A DNA stretch of 64,000 bases from NCBI GenBank assembly GCA_017853575.1, contig JAFMJI010000001.1, forward strand, positions 124,001-188,000, given 5' to 3'. This DNA is from Chitinophagaceae bacterium (GTDB taxonomy: Bacteria > Bacteroidota > Bacteroidia > Chitinophagales > Chitinophagaceae). The notes beneath the pieces are model-generated. The model was not told the DNA's origin. It saw only the letters and a list, made by a program, of their open reading frames with translations, and searched no databases. Below are positions 1,225 through 60,769 of this stretch, in pieces. Both the position numbers and the translations under genes were made by a program. Position 1 is the first letter of the stretch. Each line of letters starts with the position of its first letter.

Positions 1225-1257
1225 CGAAGTTAACATATCTGTTCTTGAACTCAGCAA
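1225..1257 (-). promoter_or_regulatory. Promoter of the EamA gene (TTG-N22-TAACTTCG)
   Basis: On the minus strand a TTG (1255-1257) is followed after 22 bp by TAACTTCG (1225-1232), a one-base variant of the Bacteroidota -7 consensus TAnnTTTG. Only four bases (CGGC) separate the box from the GTG start. The TTG lies in the last codons of the upstream dehydrogenase gene. Confidence 0.5.
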
Positions 1258-5705: not shown

Positions 5706-7541
5706 TTATTCTACAGTTACACTTTTAGCTAAATTTCTTGGACGATCAACATCAAGTCCGCGACTTACACCAATATAATATGACAGAAGTTGCAAAGGAA
5801 TTACATTGAGTATTGGCGCAATAATTTCATCTGCAGCAGGAACTGCAATAATATCTTTGGTGAAGGCCGCTAAAGTTTTATCACCTTCGGTTACAACAGC
5901 GATCAGTTTTCCTTTTCTTGCATTTATCTCTTGCATGTTGCTAACTACCTTCTCATGATAAGCATCTCTTGTTGCAACAAATAGAACAGGAAGGCTTTCA
6001 TCAACCAATGCAATGGGACCATGTTTCATTTCAGCTGCAGGATATCCTTCGGCATGTATATATGATATCTCTTTCAACTTTAATGCACCCTCCAAAGCAA
6101 CTGGAAAGTTATATCCTCTTCCCAAGTAAAGAAAACTATTCGCGTTGGCAGTTTTTGCAGCAATTGACTGAATAGATGAAACATCAGAAAGTATCTTTTC
6201 GACTTTTTCTGGTAGTGCATTCAGTTCATGTAAGAGTTCTACAAATCTATCATGTGAAACAGATTGTTTTTCTTTTGCAATTTTCAAGGCAATCATAGTT
6301 AGTACAACCAATTGTGCAGTAAATGCTTTTGTACTAGCCACTCCGATCTCAGGGCCTGCATGAGTATATGCCCCAGCATGAGAAACACGAGCAATAGATG
6401 ATCCCACTACATTCAGCACACCGAAGATCAAAGCACCTTGCTCCTTGGCTCTTTCGATTGCAACGAGGGTGTCTGCTGTTTCACCACTTTGGGAAATAGC
6501 AAAGATTACATCGCCCTTATTAACAATTGGATTTCTATACCTAAATTCTGAGGCATATTCAACTTCAACAGGGATACGGCACAACTCTTCTATAATATAT
6601 TCAGCAGCAAGTCCTGCATGCCAACTTGTTCCGCAAGCAATAATAATGATGCGGTTCGCATGCTTCAGCTTATCAATTTGTGATTCAACACCACCCATGA
6701 TAATATCTTCATGCGCTATATCCAATCTACCTCGCAAACAATCATAAATCGTTTTGGGTTGTTCATAAATTTCTTTCAACATAAAATGATCAAATCCGCC
6801 TTTTTCAATAGCAGACAATTCAAGATCCAATTGTTGAACAAAAGGAGTTATTTTTTCATTACCCAAATTTTTCAAAATCAGTTCATCACTCTTGATGATG
6901 GCAAGTTCATAGTCGTTGATATAAACTACTTCTTTGGTGTATTCAATGATGGGAGAAGCATCAGATGCAAGGAAGTGCTCTCCCTTTCCAATGCCTATGA
7001 CAAGTGGGCTCCCTTTTCTTGCGGCGATAAGTGTATCTGGATTCTCTTCATCCAACAAAACAATCACGTAAGCTCCGACCACTCTTTTCAAAGCAACACG
7101 AACCGCTTCTTCGAGAGAGCAACTGTTGTGAATCAGAATATCATCAATAAAGTTTACAAGAATTTCAGTATCTGTGTCACTATTAAATTTGTATCCCTTG
7201 CTAAGCAAGTCCTGCTTGATCGATGCGTAATTTTCAATGATACCATTGTGAATCATTGCAATTCTTCCGCTGTTTGACATATGTGGATGAGCATTTCTGT
7301 CGCTCGGTTCTCCATGCGTTGCCCATCTGGTATGCCCAATACCAATGGTGGATTTCAGTTCCTTACCCATGAGAAACTCTTCTAACTCAGCAACCTTGCC
7401 TTTCTTTTTATAAACTTTAATGGAATCATGAATCATGGCAACACCTGAGCTGTCGTAGCCTCTGTACTCTAAACGTTTAAGTCCCTTTAAAATGACTGGA
7501 TAGGCTTCCCTATGGCCAACATAAGCTAAAATACCGCACAT
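5706..7541 (-). CDS. glmS: Glutamine-fructose-6-phosphate transaminase (isomerizing)
   Basis: 611 residues, the standard GlmS length. It converts fructose-6-phosphate and glutamine to glucosamine-6-phosphate, the entry step to UDP-GlcNAc, peptidoglycan and LPS. The protein begins MCGILAYVGHREAYP, and Cys2 becomes the N-terminal nucleophile of the class II glutaminase domain (residues 1 to about 220; HTRWATHG and HNGIIENY visible). Two SIS sugar-isomerase domains follow (about 285-415 with CGTSWHAG and SQSGETADT; about 455-600 with LGRGYNFPVALEGALKLKE). The C-terminus RPRNLAKSVTVE carries the family's conserved end. It is first gene of an operon with DUF4954. No ribozyme-like leader is seen; the leader is only about 14 bases. 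Confidence 0.98.
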   Translation of the reverse strand: MCGILAYVGHREAYPVILKGLKRLEYRGYDSSGVAMIHDSIKVYKKKGKVAELEEFLMGKELKSTIGIGHTRWATHGEPSDRNAHPHMSNSGRIAMIHNGIIENYASIKQDLLSKGYKFNSDTDTEILVNFIDDILIHNSCSLEEAVRVALKRVVGAYVIVLLDEENPDTLIAARKGSPLVIGIGKGEHFLASDASPIIEYTKEVVYINDYELAIIKSDELILKNLGNEKITPFVQQLDLELSAIEKGGFDHFMLKEIYEQPKTIYDCLRGRLDIAHEDIIMGGVESQIDKLKHANRIIIIACGTSWHAGLAAEYIIEELCRIPVEVEYASEFRYRNPIVNKGDVIFAISQSGETADTLVAIERAKEQGALIFGVLNVVGSSIARVSHAGAYTHAGPEIGVASTKAFTAQLVVLTMIALKIAKEKQSVSHDRFVELLHELNALPEKVEKILSDVSSIQSIAAKTANANSFLYLGRGYNFPVALEGALKLKEISYIHAEGYPAAEMKHGPIALVDESLPVLFVATRDAYHEKVVSNMQEINARKGKLIAVVTEGDKTLAAFTKDIIAVPAADEIIAPILNVIPLQLLSYYIGVSRGLDVDRPRNLAKSVTVE

Positions 7542-7555
7542 ACTTAAATTTTCCG

Positions 7556-7588
7556 CAAAACTATCAATTGATCATCGAAAAGCATCAA
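7556..7588 (-). promoter_or_regulatory. Candidate glmS promoter (TTG-N22-TAGTTTTG)
   Basis: Minus-strand TTG at 7586-7588 and TAGTTTTG at 7556-7563 match the Bacteroidota -33/-7 pattern with a 22-bp spacer. The box lies 14 bp before the glmS ATG. A 10-bp palindrome, ATCAATTGAT (7563-7572), lies inside the spacer and could be an operator or chance. Confidence 0.45.
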
Positions 7589-14481: not shown

Positions 14482-15885
14482 CTAACCGAGGCCCATTTCT
14501 TGGTGCATTTCAGGAATTTCTACATCGGTAAATCCTTTTCTCAATAATCTTTCTCTGAAATCAATTTGTACTGGGTATTCTCCATGTACCAAAAATACTT
14601 TTCTTACCGTTCTTGGATCCTGACAAGACAAAAACTGAGAAAGATCTTCATAATCACCATGTGCACTCATACTTCTGATGCTCCCAATCTCAGCATGGAT
14701 TTCATGTTGCACTCCATAAATACTAACTTCTTTTTTTCCGCTTTGCAATCGTGCCCCGAGTGAATGAGGTTCGCAATATCCAACCATCAAGATTGTATTT
14801 CGTGAGTTTTCAATATTGTTGCTGATATGATGTTTTACTCTACCTGCATCAGCCATCCCACTGGCAGAAATGATGACACAAGGCTCATTTCTAAAATTGA
14901 GAAGCTTCGACTCATCAACTGTTTTCACATATTGCAACCCAGCAAACCTGAATGGATCTTCATCTTTTTCCAAGACTTTTCTGATGCGTGCATTAAAATA
15001 TTGCGGATATTTTTTTACGATTTCAGTTGCTTCCACACTCAAAGGACTATCAACAAAATAATCCAGTTCAGGCAATCGTCGTTCCAGCTCCAATTGATTC
15101 AATGCATAGAGCAATTCCTGAGTTCTTCCTACACTGAATGCCGGAATGATAAGCTTGCCTTTTTTCTGTATGCAGGTTTTTTCAATCCATTGCAAAAGCT
15201 GATCAGGAGTGGGCTGATGTAAATCGTGCAATGAGTTTCCATAAGTTGACTCAATAATAATGATGTCAGATTGTGGGAATACCTCAGGTGATTTCAAAAT
15301 CACATCACGGTATCTGCCAACATCACCACTAAACGTGAGCATATGTTGTTTTCCATTTTCATTGATTCGCAAATGAACTGCGGCACTTCCGATGATATGT
15401 CCAGCGTCTGTGTACAATAGATCAATGCCTTCTTCTATTGTAAACCAATCACCATATTCAACTACTTTAAAATGCTCTACTGCTGCTTCTGCTTCTTCGG
15501 TTGTATACAAGGGTTTCAACAGTGGGAGTCCTGCTGCCTTTCTTTTCTTATTATGATACTTAATATCGTCTTCTTGAATGCGTGCAGAGTCGACCAGCAA
15601 AACTGCAGTAAGCTCTCTTGTTGCAGGAGTACAAAATATTTTTCCTTTGAAACCTTCACTTACCAATTTAGGAATCAGTCCGCTGTGATCTATATGTGCA
15701 TGAGATAAAACCAAGTAATCAATAGTTGTTGGATCAAATCCAAAATGCCGGTTCAATGCATCGGTTTCTTTCCCCATCCCCTGAAACATCCCACAATCAA
15801 GCAAAATATTTTTACCACTTTTTAATGTAACCAAATGTTTTGATCCTGTTACCGTTCTTGCCGCACCATGAAAAGCAATTTTCAT
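14482..15885 (-). CDS. MBL-fold beta-CASP RNA-processing-type nuclease
   Basis: 467 residues. The metallo-beta-lactamase zinc site is intact (SHAHIDH, with His62, His64, Asp66 and His67; later zinc ligands in GHIIGSAAVHL and FSGDVGR). The beta-CASP insert is recognised by FSVGRTQELLYAL and by SASGMADAGRVKHH, and the C-terminal RMMBL part by MSAHGDYEDL and VFLVHGE. This matches the bacterial relatives of CPSF73/Ysh1 that cut RNA in the cytoplasm; the precise RNA target is unknown. It is downstream of DUF4442 with a 6-bp gap, so the two are probably co-transcribed. It is not RNase J, which is longer and has a different C-terminal domain. Confidence 0.9.
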   Translation of the reverse strand: MKIAFHGAARTVTGSKHLVTLKSGKNILLDCGMFQGMGKETDALNRHFGFDPTTIDYLVLSHAHIDHSGLIPKLVSEGFKGKIFCTPATRELTAVLLVDSARIQEDDIKYHNKKRKAAGLPLLKPLYTTEEAEAAVEHFKVVEYGDWFTIEEGIDLLYTDAGHIIGSAAVHLRINENGKQHMLTFSGDVGRYRDVILKSPEVFPQSDIIIIESTYGNSLHDLHQPTPDQLLQWIEKTCIQKKGKLIIPAFSVGRTQELLYALNQLELERRLPELDYFVDSPLSVEATEIVKKYPQYFNARIRKVLEKDEDPFRFAGLQYVKTVDESKLLNFRNEPCVIISASGMADAGRVKHHISNNIENSRNTILMVGYCEPHSLGARLQSGKKEVSIYGVQHEIHAEIGSIRSMSAHGDYEDLSQFLSCQDPRTVRKVFLVHGEYPVQIDFRERLLRKGFTDVEIPEMHQEMGLG

Positions 15886-23198: not shown

Positions 23199-23939
23199 TC
23201 ACTCGAAAATTTCCTCTGCCTTAATTAATGAGTCTGGCTTCCCAACGTCCAACACCAGATCACCAGAGTGATCATATGCGATGACCAACTCTTCTTTGGC
23301 AATCTTCAAATAAACATCAATCATTGAAAATATTCCATCAGCAGGCATGTATTTAAAGATATTGGGATGAATCACATGAATTCCAGAGAAAGAAAATGGT
23401 CTCACATCATCCACTACTCCATGAACCCATTTCACTTCCCCCGAATGATTGTTTTTCCATCCAACGAGTTTCATTTCATCATCAAACAACAATTGCCTAG
23501 AGCTCTCCCTATCGGTCATAGCCAATGTTGCAAGTGGTTTGATTTTTTGATGATACTCAAACATCCCAATAAGATCCAGGTTCGTCAGAATATCAACATT
23601 CATTACTATAAATGGAGGCCCATCTTGATTTAAGTATTTTGATGCATACGCCAGTCCGCCGCCCGTTTCAAACGGACCATCTGCTTCATAAGAAATTGCG
23701 ATATCCCATTCAGGTCTTTGAATCTTTTTTAATTCAGCATCAATCTGATCTGCAAAATGATGCGTATTGATTACGAAATCTACAATACCAAATCCGTTTA
23801 AATATTCTAAATTTCTCTCCAATAAACTTTTACCATTTACTCGAGCAAGTGCTTTTGGATGATGATCTGTGAAAGGCTTGAGCCTGGTTCCTAACCCAGC
23901 GGCAAAGATCATTGCTTTACAATCTTTAATAGGGCTCAT
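23199..23939 (-). CDS. MurU-like sugar-1-phosphate nucleotidyltransferase
   Basis: 246 residues, single GT-A-like nucleotidyltransferase domain. The signature loop AMIFAAGLGTRLKPFTDHHP is at residues 9-28 with the phosphate-contacting Lys at 29; FETGGGLAYASKYL and IVMNVDILTN (metal-binding Asp) follow. The length and motif spacing match MurU, the MurNAc-1-phosphate uridylyltransferase of the anhydro-MurNAc recycling route, better than the longer hexose pyrophosphorylases. It overlaps by 14 bp the end of the AmgK-like kinase gene, and in known systems AmgK feeds MurU, so the pair probably turns MurNAc or a related amino sugar into UDP-MurNAc. The sugar specificity is inferred from this pairing. 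Confidence 0.8.
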   Translation of the reverse strand: MSPIKDCKAMIFAAGLGTRLKPFTDHHPKALARVNGKSLLERNLEYLNGFGIVDFVINTHHFADQIDAELKKIQRPEWDIAISYEADGPFETGGGLAYASKYLNQDGPPFIVMNVDILTNLDLIGMFEYHQKIKPLATLAMTDRESSRQLLFDDEMKLVGWKNNHSGEVKWVHGVVDDVRPFSFSGIHVIHPNIFKYMPADGIFSMIDVYLKIAKEELVIAYDHSGDLVLDVGKPDSLIKAEEIFE

Positions 23940-25383
23940 TGATCCAATTTTTTGATTCCTGTTCTATATGGCGAACAACGGTATTGACCTTATACTTATC
24001 CCTTAAATGCTCGGCCAACTTATCCGCGGCAAATACACTGCGGTGTTGACCGCCTGTACATCCAAAGCTGATGGTCAATCCCTCAAAACTTCTTTTGATA
24101 TAATCTTCTATAGAGATATCAATCATGCCAAAAACATGTTGCAAAAACGAAGACATATTTGTTTTGTGCATCAAAAACTCTTGAACAGGCTTGTCTCTTC
24201 CAGTGAGTGTTTTGTATTCATCCAAACGTCCCGGATTCAAAATACCCCTGCAATCAAAAACATATCCTCCACCATTTCCAAATTGATCTTCAGGAATTCC
24301 TTTTCGGTAGGAAAAACTATTTATATGAACTGTAAGTTTACAATCAGGACCAGCAACAACTGTTGCAAATTTTTCCAAGACTTCATCAGCAACGATGGCA
24401 TTCAGCACTTTCTGAAGAGCTGGTAATCTGATTGGTAAATGTTTGTTTTCCAAAAACCATTTAAGATTGTTCAATGCAAACGGAATACTTGCTATAAAAT
24501 GTGGTTTTCGTTCGAACAATCCTCTGAAACCATAGGCACCCAGCGTTTGCAGCATTCTAATCAAAACAAATCCATCATAATTTGCCATAAAATCTTGCTT
24601 TCGCAATGTTCCCTCCAGCAATTCATTGGCATGATCAAAATAGTAGTTCACCAACTCATCTCTCCATTCATATGGCATTTGAGCTCTGGCCTGCCATAAC
24701 AATGATGCAATATCATATTGCAGTGCACCTTGCATGCCCCCTTGGTAATCAATGAACCAAATTTTTTCATCTTTGATCATTACGTTTCTGCTCTGGCAAT
24801 CTCGGTGCATGAAAAATTGGTTTTCCTCTTGCATGAGATAACTGCTGAGCATTTCAAAATCATTCAACAACAAATTTTTATCATATGGCAAATCCAATGC
24901 TCTTACGAAGTAGTATAAAAAATAAAGGAGATCAGAATAAATGGCCTGTTTGTCGAATGACCTGGTTGCTATACAATTGTTGTAGTCAATGTTTTTTCCT
25001 CCAACAATTTGCAATTGTGCGAGAGACCTACATGTTTTTTGAAAAAGAGATTTTACATTTTCAGAAAACCCTTCCTTTTGCATAATGTCAAAAAGGGATA
25101 GATCCCCCAGATCAGACTGCACATAAAATTGTTGTTGGGGATCTACGAATTCAATGCTAGGCACAGAAAGACCTTGATCAGTAAAATGTTTTGTAAATGA
25201 AACAAAGGCATTGTTTTCTGGAATATTGGCTGGATTGTACGTCAAAATATAAGATGCTGGCCCTTTGGTCAACCTGAAGTACTGGCGATTGCTTCCAGCC
25301 TGTTTCAGGGATTGAATTTCAACATTCCCCTTGCCATCCCATTTTTTTACAGCTTCTGTGATTTTGTCAAATGCGTTGTGCAT
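23926..25383 (-). CDS. AmgK-like sugar kinase fused to RapZ C-terminal domain
   Basis: 485 residues in two parts. Residues 1 to about 330 are an aminoglycoside-phosphotransferase-like kinase: nucleotide loop AGSNRQYFRL (29-38), catalytic HRDCQSRN (193-200) and metal-binding IDYQGGMQG (211-219), the same form as in the MurNAc/GlcNAc 1-kinase AmgK. Residues 349-475 match the C-terminal domain of RapZ: SFSYRKGIP, FDCRGILNPG, TGRDKPVQEFL and ISFGCTGGQHRS. The N-terminal P-loop kinase half of RapZ is absent. In E. coli the RapZ C-terminal domain senses glucosamine-6-phosphate and binds small RNA and RNase E. Here it could let amino-sugar levels control the kinase, which is inference. The start ATG lies four bases after TAACTTTG. 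Confidence 0.85.
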   Translation of the reverse strand: MHNAFDKITEAVKKWDGKGNVEIQSLKQAGSNRQYFRLTKGPASYILTYNPANIPENNAFVSFTKHFTDQGLSVPSIEFVDPQQQFYVQSDLGDLSLFDIMQKEGFSENVKSLFQKTCRSLAQLQIVGGKNIDYNNCIATRSFDKQAIYSDLLYFLYYFVRALDLPYDKNLLLNDFEMLSSYLMQEENQFFMHRDCQSRNVMIKDEKIWFIDYQGGMQGALQYDIASLLWQARAQMPYEWRDELVNYYFDHANELLEGTLRKQDFMANYDGFVLIRMLQTLGAYGFRGLFERKPHFIASIPFALNNLKWFLENKHLPIRLPALQKVLNAIVADEVLEKFATVVAGPDCKLTVHINSFSYRKGIPEDQFGNGGGYVFDCRGILNPGRLDEYKTLTGRDKPVQEFLMHKTNMSSFLQHVFGMIDISIEDYIKRSFEGLTISFGCTGGQHRSVFAADKLAEHLRDKYKVNTVVRHIEQESKNWINEPY

Positions 25384-25387
25384 ATTG

Positions 25388-25395
25388 CAAAGTTA
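25388..25395 (-). promoter_or_regulatory. -7 box TAACTTTG, four bases before the kinase-RapZ start
   Basis: Minus-strand TAACTTTG then CAAT then ATG (25381-25383). If transcription starts about where TAnnTTTG promoters normally start, the mRNA begins at or next to the ATG. No TTG at the usual -33 distance. Confidence 0.5.
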
Positions 25396-25425
25396 TTCTT
25401 TATTCATAAAAGAATCGGAGGGTTG

Positions 25426-25433
25426 TATCTTTG
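25426..25433 (+). promoter_or_regulatory. -7 box TATCTTTG, four bases before the trmH-like start
   Basis: Plus-strand TATCTTTG then ACAA then ATG (25438). It faces the divergent box at 25388-25395; the two promoters share a 54-bp gap. No TTG at the usual -33 distance. A second in-frame ATG at 25453 is an alternative start. Confidence 0.5.
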
Positions 25434-25437
25434 ACAA

Positions 25438-25974
25438 ATGCAGAAGAAGGAAATGGACGAATTGGGCCGATTGAGCAAAACCGCGTATCAGCATGCGAGT
25501 AAAATGCCCATTGCATTGATCCTGGAAAATGTGAGAAGCATGCACAATGTGGGAAGTGTTTTTAGAACATCAGACGCATTTCTGGTTAATAAAATATACC
25601 TGTGTGGTTATACTCCAAGACCCCCTCACAGAGATATTCAAAAAACTGCACTTGGAGCCACTGATACAGTTGCTTGGGAAGGATTTGAAAATATTGAAAG
25701 ATGTATTCAAGAATTAAAAAATGATGGATATAAAATATTTGCAGTAGAGCAGGTACATGGTAGTATTTCCCTGGACAATTTTATACTTGAATCAAAAGAA
25801 CCCATTGCATTGATATTTGGGAATGAAGCCCAGGGAGTAGATGCAAATACCATAAAATTATGCGACGGCTCCATTGAAATTCCTCAATTTGGAAGCAAGC
25901 ATTCCTTCAACATCAGTGTTTCTGCAGGAATTGTTTTGTGGGAAATTTATAAACAAATGAAGCAGCTTAGATGA
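25438..25974 (+). CDS. TrmH/SpoU-family RNA 2'-O-methyltransferase
   Basis: 178 residues, one SPOUT domain and no large N-terminal extension. The three SpoU motifs are present: ALILENVRSMHNVGSVFRTSDAF (motif 1, with the Asn and Arg used for RNA and catalysis, split around residue 30), PIALIFGNEAQGVDA (motif 2, the SAM-knot Glu) and IPQFGSKHSFNISVSAGIVLWE (motif 3). Members 2'-O-methylate tRNA or rRNA; the target here is unknown. Either the ATG at 25438 or the one at 25453 may be used; both keep the domain. It is first in a tightly packed trmH-ubiA-ruvX operon, overlapping ubiA by four bases. Confidence 0.9.
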   Translation: MQKKEMDELGRLSKTAYQHASKMPIALILENVRSMHNVGSVFRTSDAFLVNKIYLCGYTPRPPHRDIQKTALGATDTVAWEGFENIERCIQELKNDGYKIFAVEQVHGSISLDNFILESKEPIALIFGNEAQGVDANTIKLCDGSIEIPQFGSKHSFNISVSAGIVLWEIYKQMKQLR

Positions 25975-26879: not shown

Positions 26880-27296
26880 ATGGGAAGAATCTTAGCACTA
26901 GACTACGGAATGAAAAGAACTGGAATTGCAGTTACAGATCCATTGAAAATTATTGCAAATGGATTAATTACCATTGAAACAGAAAAGCTCTTTGATTTTT
27001 TAAAAGATTATTCAAACAAAGAATCAATTGAAAAAATTATAATTGGAAACCCGCTCAATTTAGATGGGAGCCCAACTGATGCTACACCTGCAGTTCATCA
27101 TTGCATCCGCAGACTCAGAAATACTTTCCCAACCTTGCCTATCATTTCGGTTGACGAAAGATACAGTTCAAAAATGGCCTCGAATGCGATGTTGGAAATG
27201 GGTATGAAAAAAAAGGACAGAAGAGAAAAATCTAATATCGATTTGATTGCTGCTACTATGTTGTTACAAGATTACTTAGGGAACAACATTTTATAA
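26880..27296 (+). CDS. ruvX: Putative Holliday-junction resolvase RuvX/YqgF
   Basis: 138 residues, RNase-H-like fold. The first acidic strand ILALDYGMKRTGIAVTDP (residues 4-21), the second IIGNPLNLDGSPTDA, VDERYSSKMASNAM with the conserved Asp-Glu-Arg, and a final KSNIDLIAATMLLQDYL with the last Asp are all there. YqgF proteins have been linked to processing of the 16S rRNA 5' end (pre-16S nuclease) and proposed as Holliday-junction resolvases; the first is the better-supported role. It is last of the trmH-ubiA-ruvX operon, and its 3' end overlaps that of the convergent def gene by 25 bp. Confidence 0.93.
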   Translation: MGRILALDYGMKRTGIAVTDPLKIIANGLITIETEKLFDFLKDYSNKESIEKIIIGNPLNLDGSPTDATPAVHHCIRRLRNTFPTLPIISVDERYSSKMASNAMLEMGMKKKDRREKSNIDLIAATMLLQDYLGNNIL

Positions 27297-27850
27297 CCTG
27301 GCTTCACCCTTCCGGCGCTGATATCATCAAGTTTTTTCTTTAGCAATTTTCTTTTAATCAATGAGATTCGATCAATGAAAAGTTTTCCATCTATGTGATC
27401 ATACTCATGTTGTATCACCCGTGCATTAAGCCCCCGGTAGGTTTCCGTTTTTTGAACAAAGTGTTCATCGCAGTACGACAAAGTGATGATGTTTTCTCTT
27501 GTAACTTCTTCTCTGAAGCCAGGCAAACTCAAACAACCTTCATCACAGCTCCACTCATGTCCGCTTCGTTCAGTGATATGCGCATTGATGAAAACTTTTT
27601 TCATTCCTTGCTCACCCTCAAATTGGTCTTTTTCATCCTCATCACTGTTGTTATATACTTGCTCTGTATCAATTACAAAAAGTCGAATGGACTTATTGAT
27701 TTGTGGAGCAGCGAGTCCCATGCCATGAGAATTGTACATGGTTTCCCACATATCAGCAATCAATACATCAAGATTGGGATAATCCTGGGTGATATCATCG
27801 CATACCTGTCGTAGTACAGGATGTCCATATGCAACTACGGGAAGAATCAT
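27272..27850 (-). CDS. def: Peptide deformylase
   Basis: 192 residues. It removes the formyl group from the initiator methionine of new proteins. The three motifs are GMGLAAPQI (G-x-G-x-A-A-x-Q), EGCLSLPG (metal-binding Cys) and QHEYDHIDGKLFIDR (HExxH, two metal-binding His). The N-terminus MILPVVAYGHPVLRQ matches the family directly, so the ATG at 27848-27850 is firm. That matters because a TATCTTTG box ends just four bases upstream, predicting a leaderless mRNA. It is downstream of the glucan phosphorylase gene on the same strand but has its own promoter box. Confidence 0.97.
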   Translation of the reverse strand: MILPVVAYGHPVLRQVCDDITQDYPNLDVLIADMWETMYNSHGMGLAAPQINKSIRLFVIDTEQVYNNSDEDEKDQFEGEQGMKKVFINAHITERSGHEWSCDEGCLSLPGFREEVTRENIITLSYCDEHFVQKTETYRGLNARVIQHEYDHIDGKLFIDRISLIKRKLLKKKLDDISAGRVKPGYKMLFPK

Positions 27851-27854
27851 ACTG

Positions 27855-27862
27855 CAAAGATA
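27855..27862 (-). promoter_or_regulatory. -7 box TATCTTTG, four bases before the def start
   Basis: Minus-strand TATCTTTG then CAGT then ATG. The box lies 8 bp after the stop codon of the upstream phosphorylase gene. The def N-terminus is conserved, so the start codon cannot easily be moved downstream. Confidence 0.55.
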
Positions 27863-36899: not shown

Positions 36900-39800
36900 T
36901 TGAAAAGGTTATCCCATAAGATAACATGTCTGGTGGTCCTCCTCATGTGTGTTGCCTTCGTGCGCGCAGATGGAAAAGGTTTGCACGCTCAAATTAAAAC
37001 GCCTCGCGATTCTGTTCCATTTAATGACTCTTTGCTATACCCGCTACAAGACAGAAGAAGTGATAAGATTTCAATCTCGAAAAAAAATCCATTTGATTTA
37101 AAAGATCCTTCGAACATCAAAGACTCTTTGATATATGATTATAAAACGAAAGAGTATTACATCATTGAAAAAATTGGAAACCGTTATTTTAGAAAACCAA
37201 CTTCGTTGACCTTCGATGAATATCTCAGAATCCAATCAAGAAAAGCTGAGAGAGATTATTTTCAAAAGAGATCAAACACCATCAGCCTCTTAAACAGAAA
37301 GCTTGTCAAGCCACGATTGAACATGGGTGAAGAATTGTTCAACCGACTTTTTGGAACAGGTGTAGTAGATATTCGTCCACAGGGCGAAGTAAACATCACG
37401 ACAGGCTATCAGGGTCAGAACATTAAAAATCCCACACTACCTGAAAGAGCTAGAAGAAATGGAGGGTTGGATTTTGACATGGCGGCCAATTTAAATGTGT
37501 TGGGAAATATTGGAGACAAGATGAAATTTCCCATCAGCTACAATACCCTCTCTACATTTGATTTTGAAAATAAATTAAAACTCGATTATACCGGAGGCGC
37601 TGAAGATGTATTCAAAAAAGTAGAAGTTGGAAACACTTCTTTTGCAACCAAGGGAAGTTTGATTCCAGGTGCACAACAATTGTTTGGAATCAAAACACAA
37701 ATGCAATTTGGAAAATTGTGGCTGACCACTGTATTTGCAAGTCAACGTTCACAACGCCAATCAACTGCTTTCAAAGGAGGGTCAACTTCCATGCCATTTG
37801 AAATCAAAGCAGATGAATACGAAGAGAACCGTCACTTTTTATTGGCGCAACATTTCAGAAGAGAGTTTAACAAAGGGATGAAGAATCTTCCTATTGTGAA
37901 CTCACAAGTTCAATTGCTTCGTTTGGAGGTATGGGTAACCAACAGATATGGAACAACCACCAATGCGAGGGATGTAGTTGGACTGATGGACCTGGGAGAA
38001 GATAAACCTTATCAACAACCCCCGATCATCAATGCCCGTCCGGGTACAACCTACCCTTCAAATCAATCCAATGATCTTTACAGCAAAATCACCAGCAGTC
38101 CAAACAGCCGCAATCCTGCACAGGTAGTGAATTTCATGAACTCCATCGGATTACAGCCTATCAGAGATTTCGAAAAAACCTTTGCAAGAAAATTGGATTC
38201 ATCTCAATATTACTTCAACAGACAGTTGGGATTTATTTCATTGAATGTCACATTACAACCTGATGAAGTATTGGGAGTAGCTTATCAATACACTGTCAAT
38301 GGAAAAGTATTTCAGGTTGGTGAATTCGCACAGGATGTTCCAGTTGATTCAACCAGTGGTGTTTCAAAAATTCTTTTTCTAAAATTATTGAAAGCAACTT
38401 CACAAAGAACATCATTGCCGATTTGGGATTTGATGATGAAGAATGTTTATGCAGTAGGATCAGGACAACTAGAGCGACAGGATTTTCAATTTAATGTCTT
38501 ATATCAAGAACCAGGCGGTGGAGAGAAAAGATATATTACTGAAGGAGATCAGGCAGGCGTGCCCTTGATCACACTGTTAAATCTGGATCGACTTAACAAC
38601 CAGAATGATCCACAACCCGATGGTGTTTTTGATTATGTGGAAGGCTTTACTGTAAACTCCTATCAGAGCCGGGTAATGTTTCCAGTCTTGGAGCCATTCG
38701 GGCATGATTTGGACTTTGCGTTTACAGATAAAACGTTGAGAGAAAAATACCTGTTCTATCCTTTGTATGATACAATCAAAGCAATTGCGCAAACCTATGC
38801 AAACCTGAATAGGTTCATCATGAAAGGAAGCTCAAAATCGTCCGGTGGATCTTCTGGAGAAATTTCTTTGAATGCATTTAATATTCCACAAGGATCGGTT
38901 ACGGTAACATCTGGTGGACAAAAACTTACTGAGAATGTTGACTATACTATTGATTATCTCTCAGGAACACTGCGCATCATAAACAGTTCCATCAAACAAT
39001 CGGGTGTTCCAGTGAATGTTCAATTTGAAAACAATGCAACTTTCGGAGTACAGCAAAGAACATATACTGGATTGAGATGGGATTATCTTTTTAGCGATAA
39101 ATTCTCCATTGGTGGCAATATGGTGAGATTGGGAGAACGTCCATTCTTTACCAAAATGGAATACGGGTCAGATCCAATCAAAAACAGTATGGCAGGTGTA
39201 GACATGTCATACAACAGCGAAGTTCCAAGGCTGAGCAAATGGCTGAGCAAGCTTCCATTTTACGAAGCATCTGGTACATCCAGCATCAATGCATCTGCAG
39301 AGGTGGCACAATTAAAACCAGGTCATGCTCCACAAATAGGAAAAGGCGGTAGCGGATTGGTTTACTTAGATGATTTTGAGGGAACAAAATCAAGTATTGA
39401 TTTACGCTTTCCAATAATTGGATGGACATTGGCTTCAACACCTGCAGGTGCAAAAGACCGATTTGGCAATACCATGTTTCCGGAAGCTACTGCATTTGAT
39501 AACATCGATTATGGAAAGAACAGAGCAAAGCTAGCCTGGTATAACATTGAACCTATCCTTCAAGAAAAAAGAAACCTTAGCAATCCGTTGAGAAGCGATG
39601 TTGAACAACTCTCAGATCCCAGGGTAAGAAGTGTTGGTCAGCAGGAAATTTTTCCTAGAAGAACTCCTGACTTCGGACAAAGCCAGTTGGTTACATTCGA
39701 CATGGCATATTATCCCAAGGAAAGAGGGCCATATAATTATGATGCAGCCAACATTGAAAGCAATGGTGCACTTAAAAACCCCAACAAAAGATGGGGTGGA

Positions 39801-42800
39801 ATTATGCGCAGTGTTGATCAAACAGATTTTGAAACCGCAAACATTGAGTTTATTGATTTTTGGGTACTTGATCCTTTCATAAAAAATACCAACCCTGCAG
39901 GAGGATCTATGTATATCAACCTGGGTAATATTTCTGAGGATATTTTAAAAGACTCCAGAAGATTTTATGAAAATGGATTACCAACACCCACCATACCATC
40001 AAGTGTTGCAACCTCCAATTGGGGAAAGGTTCCATTGAATCCAACACAAATCACCACAGGTTTCAGCAACGAACCCAATGATCGCCCATATCAAGATGTT
40101 GGACTTGATGGTTTGACAGATTCAGCAGAGCTTGTGAAAAGAAAAGAATATTTAAATGACTTAGCAACCCGTTTGGGCGTTGGATCCAATGCATACAAGC
40201 AGGCGTCATCAGATCCATCATCGGATAATTTCAAATATTACAGGGATGCAAGCTATGATCAAGAAGAAGCGGGAATTTTAAAGAGATACAAAAACTTCAA
40301 CAACCCTCAAGGAAATTCGCCTGTTGCAAAAGCAGGTGATGCGTTTGCCTCTGCATTCACATTATATCCAGATGGAGAGGATTTAAACAGAGACAACACA
40401 TTGAATGAAGCAGAAGAATATTTTCAATATAGAATTGACTTAAAGCCATCCGGTGATCCAGTCATGCAGGTTGGAAAAAATTTTATTGCAGATAAGAAAG
40501 TGGTAAATGTAACATTGTCTGATGGTACCAAACAAGACCAGGTTTGGTATCAATTCAGGGTTCCCATCAATGCATATACCAGCAAGGTTGGAGAAATTCC
40601 GGATTTTAAATCGATCCGTTTTATAAGAATGTTTCTAACCGATTTTTCCGATTCAGTTGTATTGCGATTTGCAAAGTTGGAATTGGTAAGAAATAACTGG
40701 AGAAGCTTTGCATATGAACTAGATACAACAGGAACATATATACCAATCAACAAATCAGGTGAGAATACTTTCTTCAATGTTACAGCGGTGAATATTGAAG
40801 AGAATGACAAGAGAGATCCTATTCCATACAGAACACCTCCAGGTATTGAACGGGTCCAAACGTTGAGCAATGGAGGAATCAACATCCTACAAAATGAACA
40901 AGCACTCAGCATGACCGTTTTGAATTTGGAAGAAGGCAGAAGCAGAGCGGTGTTCAAAGGATTTAATCACGACCTAAGACAATACAAGACCATCTCCATG
41001 TTTTATCATGCAGAAAGTTTAAAACAATATGCAAAAATCAATGATGGTGAATTGTATGCAGTTATACGACTTGGTACTGATTACATTAACCACTATTATG
41101 AAATTAAATACCCACTTAAAACAACTCCATTTGGAACATCAGACGAGAAGGTAATTTGGCCAAGTGAAAATGAATTAAACTTTGATTTACAAACGTTGGT
41201 AGATTTAAAAAATGAAAGAAACCTCAAAACAAACAATGCAACTGCTATTTACCGAAAGACCATCAACGGTAAAATTTTCTCCATTTTCGGAAATCCGAAT
41301 CTTGCAGAGATAAAAGGAATCCTCGCAGGCGTTGAAAATCCTAAAAATATAAGTGGCGGAAGACCGTTGAATGCTGAAGTGTGGATCAACGAACTCAGGC
41401 TTTCCGGAATCAATGAAAACAGTGCATGGGCGGCTGTTGGGCAAATGAACATTCAGTTGGCGGATCTTGGATCAGTATCAGTTTCTGCCAACATGCATAC
41501 AGTAGGATTTGGACAATTGGAGCAAAGAGTGAACGAGCGTTTTAGAAATGATTTAAAACAATATGATTTATCGGCAAATCTTCAATTGGGAAAATTATTG
41601 CCGAAGCAATTGGGCTTGGAAATTCCTTTCTTTTTGAATCTTTCAGAAATAGTCAGCTCACCGCAATACGATCCATACGACAGAGATATTCTACTCAAAG
41701 ACAAACTTTCTCTATACAGAAATAAAAGAGACTCCATTACTGCAGATGCAGTTGATTATACAGGTATAAAAACCATCAACTTTACCAATGTAAGGTTTGC
41801 ACAGAGGCAAGACAAAAAAATACATCTGTGGAGCTTATCAAACTTTGATTTTAGTTATTCATTGACACAAACACAACAACACAATCCACTTACCGAAAAC
41901 AATGAAGTAGCAAAGACACAGGGAGGCCTTGGATATAATTTTAATAAACAACCCAAATACATTGAGCCATTTAAAAAGCTTATACCCATTCAAAGCAAAT
42001 GGGTTGACTTTATCAAAAATGTAAACTTCAATTTGATGCCTTCGTTGCTGGGTTTCAGAATTGATACCAGAAGACAATTTGGTGCCATCAGACCTCGCAA
42101 TGTTGGAGGAGGTAAATATAAAATACCTGAAACCTATGATAAATATTTTGTAGTTGACAGAAATTATAATTTGAGGTGGGACCTCACAAAATCATTGAAT
42201 TTCGATTTTCGCGCTACAAACAATTCACGAGTTGATGAACCATTTGGCAGAATCGATACCAAAGCAAAACAAGATTCAATCCTTAGAAATTTTTTAAAGG
42301 GGGGAAGGAACACACTATACAGTCACAATGCAGATTTAACATATAATGTTCCAACCAGCAGTTTTCCGTTACTGGATTGGACCACGCTTAATGTGGCATA
42401 CCGCACTACGTATAATTGGGTCGGAGCTTCAAGGTTGGCAATCAATTTAGGAAATACATTACAGAACAGCAATCAAGCTGGAGCAACCGCAGAATTGAAT
42501 TTCACACAACTCTACAACAAAGTAAGATTTTTAAGAGCCATAGATGGAAGTGGTGCAGCGCCTGCACCGAAACAGCCTAAAGCATCAAGCAAGAAAAAGA
42601 AAACCGAGAAAAAAGATAAAGACGGAAACATTATTGAAGAAAAAGAAAAGCAGGCAAAGGAACAAAAACAGAAAAAAGAAATCATACTAACGGGTGCAGA
42701 AAAAACAATTCTCAGAATCATAACAGCATTGAAAAGAATTGGTGCATCATATAATGAAGGGGGTACAACATTCCTTCCAGGATATAAGGACAGCACACAA

Positions 42801-44138
42801 GCATTAGGACAAAATTGGAAAAGTCTTTCTCCTGGAATTGATTTCATTGCAGGAAAACAACCCAATCAGGCATGGTTACAATCGGTTGCCAAGAAAGGAC
42901 TGATAACCAGTGACCCTATGTTAAACAACTTATTCCTTCAAAACTATGACCAGAAGTTTAATCTAACAGCTCAATTAGAACCCTTCAAAGATTTTATGGT
43001 AGATGTGAACGTGGATAGAACGTTGAATAAAAATTATTCAACACTTTTCAAAGACACTGCGAACACAGGACAATTTTCTGCATTGAATCCATATTCAGGA
43101 GGTGGATTTAGCATAAGTTATATTTCATTCCAAACACTGTTTGGAAAATTTGATCCAAATGCCATCAGTCAAACATTTAAAACATTTGAAGAAAACAGGC
43201 TTGCATTATCCAAGAGATTGGGTGAAAAGAATCCATACAGTAAAGTGCAAGGAGCTGACGGATTTTACAAAGGATATGGCAGGTATGCGCAGGATGTACT
43301 TGTTCCTTCATTTATAGCAGCATATACAAAGCAAGATCCCAATAGCATTTCATTGCTCAATACAGGTGAATCCGGATCTGTAAAAACAAATCCATTCAAA
43401 GGATATATGCCAAAACCAAACTGGAGAGTGACTTACAATGGATTGAGCAAGATTCCTGGAATAGAAAATATTTTAAGCAACTTCACTTTAAGCCATGCGT
43501 ATAATTCAACCTTGAGCATGAACAGCTTTAATTCAGCGTTGCTATTCCAGGATACATTGTTGTATGGATTTCCTTCATTTGTAGATACATTAACAGGCAA
43601 CTTCATTCCATATTTTTTGGTTCCGAATCTATTGATCTCAGAACAATTTGCACCATTGATTGGAATTGATTTCAGCACACCTAGTCAGATTTCCGGAAGG
43701 TTTGAATATAAAAAATCGAGACAGCTCAGTTTAAGCCTGGCAGATTTTCAACTGAGCGAAGTGCATTCAACTGAGATCACATTTGGCATGCGGTGGAGAA
43801 AGAGAGGAGTTAATCTTCCATTTAACTTGAATTTTGGAAACAAAGAACAAACCCAGAAACAGGGAAGTACTCAAGCTGGAAGCGATATTACATTTGCGCT
43901 TGATTTCAGCATCCGAGATGATATGAATTCAAACTCAAGACTAGATCAACAGAATGCATACGCTACAGGTGGTCAAAAAGTAGTTAGCATTCGACCAACG
44001 ATTGACTATGTTTTGAATAATCGCATCAACCTTCAATTGTACTTTGATCAAAGAAGGGTGAGTCCTTATATTTCTAACTCTGCGCCATCAGTAAATACAA
44101 GAGGCGGATTACAAATCAGGATCTCACTTGCGCAATAA
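36900..44138 (+). CDS. sprA: SprA, type IX secretion system outer-membrane translocon
   Basis: 2412 residues, the giant 36-strand barrel through which type IX cargo crosses the outer membrane and which gliding Bacteroidota need for surface adhesin export. It starts at TTG 36900, preceded by AGAAGGAAATA; the following MKRLSHKITCLVVLLMCVAF is a good signal peptide, whereas the first ATG (codon 16) would cut it. Family landmarks include GVVDIRPQGEVNITTGYQG, SFATKGSLIPGAQQLFGIKTQ, LVYLDDFEGTKSSIDLR, AEVWINELRLSG and, at the end, GGLQIRISLAQ. A Lys/Glu-rich, charged segment (about 1890-1922) interrupts the barrel region. Partners such as PorV or the plug protein are not in this window. The 3' end overlaps that of the SDR gene by 15 bp. 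Confidence 0.97.
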   Translation: MKRLSHKITCLVVLLMCVAFVRADGKGLHAQIKTPRDSVPFNDSLLYPLQDRRSDKISISKKNPFDLKDPSNIKDSLIYDYKTKEYYIIEKIGNRYFRKPTSLTFDEYLRIQSRKAERDYFQKRSNTISLLNRKLVKPRLNMGEELFNRLFGTGVVDIRPQGEVNITTGYQGQNIKNPTLPERARRNGGLDFDMAANLNVLGNIGDKMKFPISYNTLSTFDFENKLKLDYTGGAEDVFKKVEVGNTSFATKGSLIPGAQQLFGIKTQMQFGKLWLTTVFASQRSQRQSTAFKGGSTSMPFEIKADEYEENRHFLLAQHFRREFNKGMKNLPIVNSQVQLLRLEVWVTNRYGTTTNARDVVGLMDLGEDKPYQQPPIINARPGTTYPSNQSNDLYSKITSSPNSRNPAQVVNFMNSIGLQPIRDFEKTFARKLDSSQYYFNRQLGFISLNVTLQPDEVLGVAYQYTVNGKVFQVGEFAQDVPVDSTSGVSKILFLKLLKATSQRTSLPIWDLMMKNVYAVGSGQLERQDFQFNVLYQEPGGGEKRYITEGDQAGVPLITLLNLDRLNNQNDPQPDGVFDYVEGFTVNSYQSRVMFPVLEPFGHDLDFAFTDKTLREKYLFYPLYDTIKAIAQTYANLNRFIMKGSSKSSGGSSGEISLNAFNIPQGSVTVTSGGQKLTENVDYTIDYLSGTLRIINSSIKQSGVPVNVQFENNATFGVQQRTYTGLRWDYLFSDKFSIGGNMVRLGERPFFTKMEYGSDPIKNSMAGVDMSYNSEVPRLSKWLSKLPFYEASGTSSINASAEVAQLKPGHAPQIGKGGSGLVYLDDFEGTKSSIDLRFPIIGWTLASTPAGAKDRFGNTMFPEATAFDNIDYGKNRAKLAWYNIEPILQEKRNLSNPLRSDVEQLSDPRVRSVGQQEIFPRRTPDFGQSQLVTFDMAYYPKERGPYNYDAANIESNGALKNPNKRWGGIMRSVDQTDFETANIEFIDFWVLDPFIKNTNPAGGSMYINLGNISEDILKDSRRFYENGLPTPTIPSSVATSNWGKVPLNPTQITTGFSNEPNDRPYQDVGLDGLTDSAELVKRKEYLNDLATRLGVGSNAYKQASSDPSSDNFKYYRDASYDQEEAGILKRYKNFNNPQGNSPVAKAGDAFASAFTLYPDGEDLNRDNTLNEAEEYFQYRIDLKPSGDPVMQVGKNFIADKKVVNVTLSDGTKQDQVWYQFRVPINAYTSKVGEIPDFKSIRFIRMFLTDFSDSVVLRFAKLELVRNNWRSFAYELDTTGTYIPINKSGENTFFNVTAVNIEENDKRDPIPYRTPPGIERVQTLSNGGINILQNEQALSMTVLNLEEGRSRAVFKGFNHDLRQYKTISMFYHAESLKQYAKINDGELYAVIRLGTDYINHYYEIKYPLKTTPFGTSDEKVIWPSENELNFDLQTLVDLKNERNLKTNNATAIYRKTINGKIFSIFGNPNLAEIKGILAGVENPKNISGGRPLNAEVWINELRLSGINENSAWAAVGQMNIQLADLGSVSVSANMHTVGFGQLEQRVNERFRNDLKQYDLSANLQLGKLLPKQLGLEIPFFLNLSEIVSSPQYDPYDRDILLKDKLSLYRNKRDSITADAVDYTGIKTINFTNVRFAQRQDKKIHLWSLSNFDFSYSLTQTQQHNPLTENNEVAKTQGGLGYNFNKQPKYIEPFKKLIPIQSKWVDFIKNVNFNLMPSLLGFRIDTRRQFGAIRPRNVGGGKYKIPETYDKYFVVDRNYNLRWDLTKSLNFDFRATNNSRVDEPFGRIDTKAKQDSILRNFLKGGRNTLYSHNADLTYNVPTSSFPLLDWTTLNVAYRTTYNWVGASRLAINLGNTLQNSNQAGATAELNFTQLYNKVRFLRAIDGSGAAPAPKQPKASSKKKKTEKKDKDGNIIEEKEKQAKEQKQKKEIILTGAEKTILRIITALKRIGASYNEGGTTFLPGYKDSTQALGQNWKSLSPGIDFIAGKQPNQAWLQSVAKKGLITSDPMLNNLFLQNYDQKFNLTAQLEPFKDFMVDVNVDRTLNKNYSTLFKDTANTGQFSALNPYSGGGFSISYISFQTLFGKFDPNAISQTFKTFEENRLALSKRLGEKNPYSKVQGADGFYKGYGRYAQDVLVPSFIAAYTKQDPNSISLLNTGESGSVKTNPFKGYMPKPNWRVTYNGLSKIPGIENILSNFTLSHAYNSTLSMNSFNSALLFQDTLLYGFPSFVDTLTGNFIPYFLVPNLLISEQFAPLIGIDFSTPSQISGRFEYKKSRQLSLSLADFQLSEVHSTEITFGMRWRKRGVNLPFNLNFGNKEQTQKQGSTQAGSDITFALDFSIRDDMNSNSRLDQQNAYATGGQKVVSIRPTIDYVLNNRINLQLYFDQRRVSPYISNSAPSVNTRGGLQIRISLAQ

Positions 44139-46055: not shown

Positions 46056-47531
46056 TTATCGGCTGTAATTAGGCGCCTCTTTGGTGATAGCAACATCATG
46101 TGCATGACTTTCTTTGATACCGGCATTGGTTATCCTGATGAACTGTGCAGCTTGCAAAGCCTTGATATCTTTTGCTCCACAATAACCCATTCCAGCTCGG
46201 AGTCCGCCTACAAACTGTGTTACCACTTCACTTAAGTTCCCCTTAAACGGAACCCTTCCTTCAATTCCTTCAGGAACCAATTTTTTAATGCCATCTTCCA
46301 CATCTTGGAAATACCTGTCACTGCTACCCAGTTGCATAGCGCCGATAGACCCCATACCGCGGTATTGCTTAAATTTTCTTCCTTCATAAATAATGGTTTC
46401 CCCAGGACTCTCTTCTACTCCAGCAAATATGCTGCCCATCATCACGGTTGATGCACCCGCAGCCAATGCTTTCACCATATCGCCTGTATATCTTATTCCA
46501 CCATCTGCAATTACCGGAATGTTTAATTTTTTCAGGGCAGAGGACGCCTCCATTATTGCAGTGATTTGAGGAACGCCTGCACCTGCAACAATTCTTGTTG
46601 TACAAATAGAACCAGGACCTATTCCGACTTTTACACCATCAGCACCTGCTTCAGCCAATGCTTTGGCGCCTGATGCTGTTGCCACATTTCCTGCAATAAT
46701 TCTTATCCCCTTAAAGTTTTTTCTGATCAATTTCAAAGAATCAATGACACCTTTTGTATGACCATGTGCACTATCCAAACAAACAACATCAACACCAATG
46801 TGCTGCAATGCCGCTGTCCTGTCAAGCATATCTTTTGTAATTCCAAGTGCTGCACCAACACGTAATCTTCCCAACTCATCTTTGGCCGCATTTGGGAAAC
46901 TGTGCAATTGAAGAATATCTCGATAAGTAATCAGCCCCATAAGCTGACCATTTTTCTTTACAACGGGTAGTTTTTCAATTTTATAATTCTGAAGAATTTT
47001 TTCGGCTTTTCTAAGGTCAGTACCCTCTGGAGCAGTAACCAGGTTTTCACTGGTCATGACTTCCTTTACTTTTCTTTTTCGATTTGTTTCAAACCTCAAA
47101 TCACGGTTGGTTAGAATGCCCACCAATTTATTGGATTTGTCCACAATAGGAATCCCACCGATTTTATTCTCCCTCATCAATCTTAATGCGTCTTCAATAA
47201 TTGCATCTTCATGCAACGTCACTGGATCGATGATCATACCACTTTCGCTTCTCTTTACTTTGCGAACCTGCTCTACTTGTTGCTCTACGGACATGTTTTT
47301 ATGAAGGATGCCTATTCCACCTTCGCGAGCAAGGGCAATAGCAAGGTTGGCTTCCGTAACCGTATCCATGGCTGCTGAAAGCATAGGAATGTTCAAGACG
47401 ATGTCTCTTGTTAATCGGGAGGATGTATTTACCTCTCTGGGTAATACTTCTGAATGTGCTGGAACCAGCAAAACATCATCGAAGGTCAGGCCTTCACCGA
47501 AAAATTTAGGGGATTGACTTCTTGTTGCCAT
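46056..47531 (-). CDS. guaB: IMP dehydrogenase
   Basis: 491 residues from ATG 47529-47531; an open frame continues 17 codons upstream but is not conserved. It oxidises IMP to XMP, the committed step to GTP. The barrel begins [19 protein letters not shown]. Two CBS domains are inserted (about 98-215; [23 protein letters not shown] and [21 protein letters not shown]), the usual adenine-nucleotide sensor. The catalytic Cys is in [20 protein letters not shown] (near 306), followed by the flap [10 protein letters not shown]. It heads an operon with DUF4105 and SDR. Confidence 0.98.
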
Positions 47532-47534
47532 ATG

Positions 47535-47542
47535 CGAAGGTA
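47535..47542 (-). promoter_or_regulatory. -7 box TACCTTCG, three bases before the guaB start
   Basis: Minus-strand TACCTTCG then CAT then ATG, in the 31-bp gap after the dprA stop. One of the near-leaderless arrangements of this window, with the TTCG variant. Confidence 0.4.
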
Positions 47543-50395: not shown

Positions 50396-51006
50396 GGGAT
50401 ATTCAAAAATTTATGTGTTTGAAGAGATAAAATCCATTGTGGATGTTGCTTGATATACTCAATGATGAGTGGATTCATTTCTATTGACTTGCTCCATTCT
50501 GGTTGCAAATAGAGGAGGCAGTTTTCATTCACCTGATGAGCATATTTTTCAGCCCAATCAAAATCAGACTTGTTATAAATGATTACTTTAAGTTCATCGG
50601 CCATTTTCAGCGTTCCTTCTAATGGCGCTTTAAATTTTTTTGGAGAAAAGGTAACCCAATCCCATGAACCTGAAATATTATGAGCACCGGACGTTTCAAC
50701 ATGGGTACGAATCTTATGATCATGTAATATTTTGGTCAAATCAGTGAGGTCATGCATAAAAGGTTCACCACCAGTGATCACTGCGATTTTAGCACCAGAA
50801 TCAAGTACATTTTTTAATAATATATCTATATCAAACAATGGATGTTTGCTCATGTCCCAACTTTCCTTCACATCGCACCAAACACATCCTACATCACATC
50901 CACCCAAGCGAATGAAGTAAGCTGCATGTCCGGTGAACCTTCCCTCACCTTGCAAGGTGAGAAACTGTTCCATCACTGGAAGTTGTATGTCAGTCTGGGT
51001 GATCAT
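50392..51006 (-). CDS. queE: 7-carboxy-7-deazaguanine synthase
   Basis: 204 residues from ATG 51004-51006, which overlaps the folD stop as ATGA; a frame running seven codons further upstream lies inside folD. This radical-SAM enzyme turns 6-carboxytetrahydropterin into 7-carboxy-7-deazaguanine, the ring of queuosine. The substrate-side [20 protein letters not shown] and the cluster motif with Cys37, Cys41 and Cys44 (C-x3-C-x2-C) are intact; [10 protein letters not shown] and VETSGAHN follow. QueC and QueF are not in the window; PTPS-type genes lie at 56.7-57.5 kb. It is coupled to folD upstream and to the OmpA gene downstream. Confidence 0.95.
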
Positions 51007-51888: not shown

Positions 51889-51919
51889 CAAAGGTACGCT
51901 GGTGAAAAATGACACCCAA
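51889..51919 (-). promoter_or_regulatory. Promoter of folD (TTG-N20-TACCTTTG), four bases before the start
   Basis: Minus-strand TTG (51917-51919), 20 bp, TACCTTTG (51889-51896), then CACA and ATG. Same spacer length as the tRNA-Glu promoter. This is the best-supported near-leaderless promoter of the window because both promoter elements and the start codon are firm. Confidence 0.7.
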
Positions 51920-51970
51920 ATATGATGTTTTCTACAATTTATTATTTGGCATGATAATCACCTTTACAGC

Positions 51971-57517: not shown

Positions 57518-57525
57518 GAACTTTG
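57518..57525 (+). promoter_or_regulatory. Possible -7 box of mqnB (GAACTTTG), four bases before the start
   Basis: Plus-strand GAACTTTG then CGAA then ATG at 57530. One base off the TAnnTTTG consensus at the first position, but at the same four-base distance as in five other genes. Confidence 0.35.
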
Positions 57526-60761: not shown

Positions 60762-60769
60762 CAAAGATA
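60762..60769 (-). promoter_or_regulatory. -7 box TATCTTTG, four bases before the trpS start
   Basis: Minus-strand TATCTTTG then CGGC then ATG. If the second ATG (codon 9) were used, the leader would be about 28 bases, so trpS is a weaker case for leaderless translation than def or folD. Confidence 0.5.

Follow-up and report, generated by a model that had tools for sequence, protein, structure and literature searches.

A small set of housekeeping genes in this Bacteroidota genome carries the promoter box TAnnTTTG exactly four bases before the start codon, and these genes are very probably transcribed from promoters of the sigma-ABfr type whose first transcribed base is the A of the AUG – an arrangement that would produce leaderless mRNAs, with ribosomes binding the 5'-terminal AUG directly. 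A sequence-only reading had predicted such transcripts. The prediction draws support from a peak at four in the distance between box and predicted start, from the published distance between box and transcription start, and from the conserved N-termini of folD and def.

Boxes and start codons in the window

Throughout, the window is the whole 64-kb stretch of DNA that was analysed, and spacing is the number of bases between the 3' end of a box and the start codon. The features are listed below; gene names at the three variant boxes are those of the sequence-only reading.

25388..25395, minus strand: -7 box TAACTTTG, spacing 4 to the ATG at 25381-25383 of the kinase-RapZ gene 23926-25383; read in the sequence
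25426..25433, plus strand: -7 box TATCTTTG, spacing 4 to the ATG at 25438 of the TrmH/RlmB-type methyltransferase gene (trmH) 25438-25974; read in the sequence
27855..27862, minus strand: -7 box TATCTTTG, spacing 4 to def 27272-27850; read in the sequence
51889..51896, minus strand: -7 box TACCTTTG, spacing 4 to folD 51003-51884; read in the sequence
60762..60769, minus strand: -7 box TATCTTTG, spacing 4 to trpS 59756-60757; read in the sequence
47535..47542, minus strand: variant box TACCTTCG, spacing 3 to the guaB ATG at 47529-47531
57518..57525, plus strand: one-mismatch box GAACTTTG, spacing 4 to the ATG of mqnB 57530-58168
1225..1232, minus strand: variant box TAACTTCG, spacing 4 to the GTG of EamA 366-1220
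51917..51920, minus strand: TTTG at a -33-like position, 20 bases upstream of the folD box
7556..7563, minus strand: comparison leadered box TAGTTTTG, 14 bases 5' of the gene 5706-7541, which we take to be glmS

Re-reading the sequence bore out all five perfect boxes, each with four bases and then ATG, which thus present the -7 element expected of sigma-ABfr promoters. The three variants are also as claimed, with TAACTTCG four bases before GTG, GAACTTTG four bases before ATG and TACCTTCG three bases before ATG. The EamA variant stands in part: its box does lie at spacing 4, but it is a weak instance because GTG shows no excess at that spacing (raw counts in four whole contigs, 3 at spacing 4 and 1-11 at other spacings).

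TAnnTTTG is rarer in the window than chance would have it (48 matches on both strands, 72.9 expected); since the box is not over-represented, the signal lies in its position. It stands at spacing 4 before 5 of the 61 predicted gene starts, against 0.11 expected from background (Poisson 1e-7), so that the shared distance is, as had been argued, hard to put down to chance. A sixth spacing-4 match, at 14583-14597 on the minus strand, falls within a predicted gene. The window is richer in abutting boxes than the four contigs taken whole (5/61 against 9/655, Fisher p 0.004).

Two of the boxes, 25388-25395 (minus strand) and 25426-25433 (plus strand), face outward within 25381-25440, with 30 bp between them and the two start codons 54 bp apart. 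At this distance simultaneous binding of two polymerases would hardly be possible. Each of the 15 relatives that yielded both the kinase and the trmH gene retains the two boxes. Elsewhere in the window, 36900-44138 encodes a 2412-residue protein, almost all of which matches the T9SS translocon Sov/SprA.

The distance between box and start across the genome

The genome that holds the window comprises 2.3 Mb in 40 contigs. The pattern TANNTTTGNNNNATG occurs in it 63 times, against 29 for the control, which is the same pattern read backwards. Twenty-one of the 63 matches precede a gene predicted in large stretches and a further 14 precede an ORF of at least 100 amino acids, counted without a gene-caller check; the remaining 28 are at about the level of the backward control.

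For a gene-anchored count we used a codon-usage gene caller that is blind to the box and predicted 954 genes in 1.15 Mb. The main statistics come from four contigs used in full (655 genes), whose hit counts had been listed before the choice was made. Among these 655 genes the boxes at spacings 0-12 number 0, 1, 0, 2, 9, 1, 3, 1, 2, 2, 1, 2 and 1, and those at spacings 13-20 number 3, 3, 7, 4, 2, 9, 0 and 6. The sequence-only reading had staked its case on such a histogram not being flat, and it is not: an isolated peak stands at spacing 4 (9 of 655, neighbours 0-3), against a total of 16 at the eleven positions 1-3 and 5-12 (mean 1.45; Poisson p 2e-5). The reversed motif has no match at spacings 0-6 of the same genes. 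Spacings 5-12 lie near background, and a second, broad group occupies spacings 13-20, with spacing 18 (9 boxes) as tall as spacing 4.

In the full set of 954 genes spacing 4 has 21 boxes, and spacings 3 and 5 have 3 and 4; these counts lean upward because most of the first stretches were picked with TANNTTTGNNNNATG matches in view. The leadered promoters of the same upward-leaning set prefer spacing 18 (14/954) and leave spacing 19 almost empty (1/954); there may be a favoured leader length of about 14 nt.

The peak at spacing 4 appears only after anchoring to predicted starts. When any ATG is counted in the four whole contigs there is no peak at spacing 4 (15; neighbours 13 and 18); the conspicuous values are 28 at spacing 15 and 32 at spacing 18. 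The absence of a peak from this count speaks against a strong effect, with ATGs inside genes being much more numerous than starts. We estimate that the genome holds about 35 perfect-box genes of the spacing-4 class, nearly 2% of its genes.

Start codons

The claim that the conserved N-termini of def and folD leave no room for a later start is well founded: in the NCBIfam alignments residue 1 of FolD falls on the first model position and residue 2 of Def on the second, and neither has another Met within its first 30 residues, which makes a later start very unlikely. PheT, NAD kinase, GcvT and UvrB align to their family models from residue 1-3, and the MnmG family model begins at residue 5. For folD, def and mnmG, family models and the spacing in relatives together place the abutting promoter at the true conserved start.

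The cases of trmH and trpS rest on weaker arguments because each has a later in-frame ATG. In trmH this lies at codon 6, at spacing 19, and a start there would leave a leader of 15 nt. The lysine codons 3-4 of trmH vary synonymously across relatives, and the distant relatives L079, L081 and L082 have the same aligned start position and lack the codon-6 Met. In TrpS the later Met is residue 9; the stretch just before it, mostly AIV, stays the same while its codons change synonymously. The start codon is ATG in all 26 spacing-4 genes, a count to be read with the gene caller's preference for ATG.

Conservation in relatives

The spacing is widely kept among close relatives. Our genus-level sample comprises 31 genomes, the present one included, with one genome counted twice at each of the def and mnmG loci. 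In this sample, and again with the present genome included, spacing 4 is found in 28 of 29 usable loci for folD (TTCG allowed; the exception, L220, reads TACCTTTA at the box position), in 24 of 29 for def and in 20 of 24 for mnmG. The spacers themselves differ, with 21 distinct ones in 26 distinct rows for folD, 12 in 17 for def and 14 in 18 for mnmG. The trpS spacing has drifted: it is 4 in 17 of 29 usable loci and 5-8 in the other 12. Nine of the 29 folD matches, all within L205-L218, have one TGA in the aligned frame (query 1-292), perhaps a natural stop near the C-terminus.

The closest named TrmH matches are Bacteroidota, Parafilimonas and Chitinophagales records at 77-79% identity, with several Chitinophagaceae next; we take the genome itself to be one of the Chitinophagaceae. 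Among 25 relatives tried, 22 were usable for trmH, and 18 of these have spacing 4; the box is absent from the other four. For the divergent kinase, 10 of the 25 loci tried gave no match; the other 15 relatives were usable and all have the box upstream, at spacing 4 in four, 6 in two and 7 in nine. Both comparisons cover 25 of 30 loci, the five others (L084-L088) being distant matches of 25-44% identity. As for leadered controls, the 20 usable genus-level loci of glmS either have the box at varying spacings of 14-40 or lack it, and typA has spacing 18 in 16 of 26. Since leadered typA also keeps its distance, a fixed spacing is by itself no proof of leaderlessness.

At the level of the order, only 3 of the 28 usable mnmG loci (our own counted) show spacing 4: the spacing-4 state persists among close species but changes from family to family. 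Four different pheS genes have spacing 4 among 28 usable rows (own included, one gene entered twice).

Across 40 genomes, our own included, TANNTTTGNNNNATG exceeds its backward control in 39; the sole exception is G031, where the control (106) exceeds the motif (62). For counts over the phylum we took a strict box, TAYCTTTG, and set spacing 4 against spacing 5. The counts are 21 against 2 in our own genome, 105 against 63 in seven genomes of the same family, 87 against 56 in five of the same order and 514 against 298 in 36 of the same class. In 149 phylum genomes outside that class we found no overall excess (634 against 641). Single families there go either way: f38 (8 genomes) has 84 strict boxes at spacing 4 (control 10) and 40 at spacing 5, and f31 (43 genomes) shows the reverse, with 64 at spacing 4 and 139 at spacing 5.

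Promoter sequence

C directly follows the box in 17 of 26 spacing-4 promoters and in 39 of 70 whose spacing is 13-20, whereas among ATG starts in general 179 of 917 have C at -4; because this C is frequent in both groups, they look like one class of promoter. At base -1, C is found in 14 of the 26 spacing-4 promoters against 272 of 917 ATG starts (p 0.009). A pyrimidine occupies this position in 18 of 18 distinct rows for mnmG, 15 of 17 for def and 17 of 26 for folD, compared with about 62% of all ATG starts, a bias that is in line with a putative YA initiator.

TTTG at the -33-like position of folD is present in most relatives, as judged by eye. A general -33 (TTTG) signal was sought in the 26 spacing-4 promoters and not found; in F. 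johnsoniae the -33 element is likewise weak, according to the available portion of a set of reports (PMC6847099, PMC9723704, PMC7366714).

Probable leaderless transcripts and competing explanations

The link from box to transcript comes from mapped promoters of flavobacteria. The available text of the same set of reports gives 4-5 nt between box and mapped transcription start in F. johnsoniae, with the box ending at -5, and places the box at -12 to -5 in the mapped promoters of F. psychrophilum (PMC6847099, PMC9723704, PMC7366714). With the box end at -5, a spacing of 4 would put +1 on the A of the AUG. We therefore envisage a promoter of the type used by the Bacteroidota primary sigma factor (sigma-ABfr), with a -7 TAnnTTTG often followed by C, so placed that the mRNA would have no leader and its 5'-terminal AUG would be the site of ribosome binding; most of the other box-proximal promoters would yield leaders some 9-16 nt long, and lengths of 1-8 nt would be scarce. 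Boxes, spacing, the two-peaked distances, the conservation of spacing beside variable spacers and the conserved N-termini are there to be read in the DNA and its predicted proteins, and from them we infer the transcription start and the mode of translation.

The same boxes would drive ordinary leadered mRNAs if the true starts lay further downstream. Seven of the 26 spacing-4 genes do have an in-frame ATG within codons 2-12 (150 of 919 among ATG genes), and starts at trmH codon 6 or TrpS Met9 would give leaders of the usual kind. We nonetheless consider this explanation improbable, given the alignment of FolD, Def, PheT, NAD kinase, GcvT and UvrB to their models from residue 1-3 and the conservation, with synonymous changes, of the residues before TrpS Met9; moreover, later starts would not leave unrelated genes with a single, isolated spacing of 4. 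Still less credible is that the box is a translation signal, Kozak-like or contacting the ribosome, with transcription beginning further upstream. Bacteroidota naturally do without a Shine-Dalgarno sequence, and F. johnsoniae is described as tuning initiation through bases near the AUG, but the determinant reported there is an A at -3, quite unlike TAnnTTTG, and in two flavobacteria promoter mapping has shown the octamer to be the -7 element (available text of PMC6847099, PMC9723704, PMC7366714). The octamer, often with the same next C, also occurs 13-20 bases 5' of other genes.

Coincidence, or selection by the reader of chance boxes beside starts, we regard as the least plausible account and as having almost no chance of being right. 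The richness of the window relative to whole contigs and the lack of an any-ATG excess at 4 are what might be expected of it, but it does not accommodate the gene-anchored peak with no reversed-motif counterpart in the same 655 genes, nor the spacing conserved in relatives at folD, def, mnmG and trmH.

Relation to known leaderless systems

Leaderless mRNAs from TAnnTTTG promoters are already known in Bacteroidota, and the present set is a probable, well-conserved further instance, in which the exactness of the spacing and its conservation are exceptionally plain. As far as the available portions of the reports go (PMC6847099, PMC9723704, PMC7366714), in F. psychrophilum the leaderless share is 5.5% of mRNAs for 890 CDSs, in B. 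thetaiotaomicron about 3.7% of 5' UTRs are shorter than 10 nt, and in F. johnsoniae leaders exceed 10 nt in 87% of transcripts with a probable promoter. The Flavobacterium and Bacteroides cases belong to the same phylum and share the -7 element TAnnTTTG; they derive from RNA data, whereas ours are predicted from sequence. Those portions describe no exact spacing class, two-peaked distribution or cross-species conservation of individual leaderless genes. The present analysis adds a sharp rule at the level of sequence, distances that form two peaks and conservation across species, and in literature searched by title and the start of the abstract we found no report of a spacing-4 leaderless class in Chitinophagaceae.

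In Deinococcus-Thermus, too, a promoter element (the -10 region) abuts the ORF and leads to a leaderless mRNA, but the consensus is another one and, in the part of the report available, about 30% of ORFs are concerned, against the nearly 2% of genes estimated here (PMC12340547). The TA-led genes of Zheng et al. 2011 (PMC3160421) were likewise predicted from genomes by a promoter box near the start. That study, in its available text, looked for Pribnow-like boxes, and of 37 Bacteroidetes/Chlorobi genomes it reports 1 with leaderless genes, possibly an underestimate; it also describes leaderless genes as less likely among translation genes, whereas several translation genes are found here.

The arrangement matters for how ribosomes of Bacteroidota select start codons without a Shine-Dalgarno sequence. 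A conserved leaderless class that can be predicted from sequence, beside one whose leaders measure about 9-16 nt, would let two modes of initiation be compared cleanly within the same cell, and TAnnTTTG-N4-ATG 5' of a coding frame is a simple hint for start-codon correction in Bacteroidota.

Genes with abutting promoters

The spacing-4 sequences number 40, made up of 26 genes and 14 ORFs. We compared 36 of them with NCBIfam, and at 1e-10 four of the 36 had no match. The families recognised are FolD, TrpS, peptide deformylase, phosphoglycerate mutase, HisS, GltX, PyrH, MiaB, KdsC, PheT, PheS, NAD kinase, UppS, KdsA, TruB, TsaD, MnmG, UvrB and GcvT. Matches below family cut-offs were to a TrmH/RlmB-type methyltransferase, a GpsA-type dehydrogenase, a CtaA-type heme A synthase and an RlmI-like methyltransferase. 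HisS, PheS, PyrH and NAD kinase carry the TTCG variant of the box.

Translation supply appears prominent among these genes, an observation made post hoc; the leadered starts, too, include genes that we recognised by eye and take to be SerS, ArgS, MetG, TypA and Frr. That the spacing-4 genes form a selected regulon and are more than minimal promoters, with the lack of a leader serving to sense starvation or the supply of initiator tRNA, seems to us doubtful; the idea derives from a review that, in its available part, describes strong enhancement of leaderless translation by fMet-tRNA and its possible activation by (p)ppGpp. The members named under it are TrpS, GltX, HisS, PheS and PheT; the tRNA modifiers MiaB, TruB, TsaD and MnmG; the rRNA/tRNA methyltransferases; and, for the formyl-methionine route, FolD, GcvT, Def and Fmt.

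Fmt (methionyl-tRNA formyltransferase; L007:14868-15806, minus strand) has TAATTTTG at spacing 3 to its ATG. The formyl/one-carbon route is thus marked by near-abutting promoters, at spacing 4 for FolD, Def and GcvT and at spacing 3 for Fmt.
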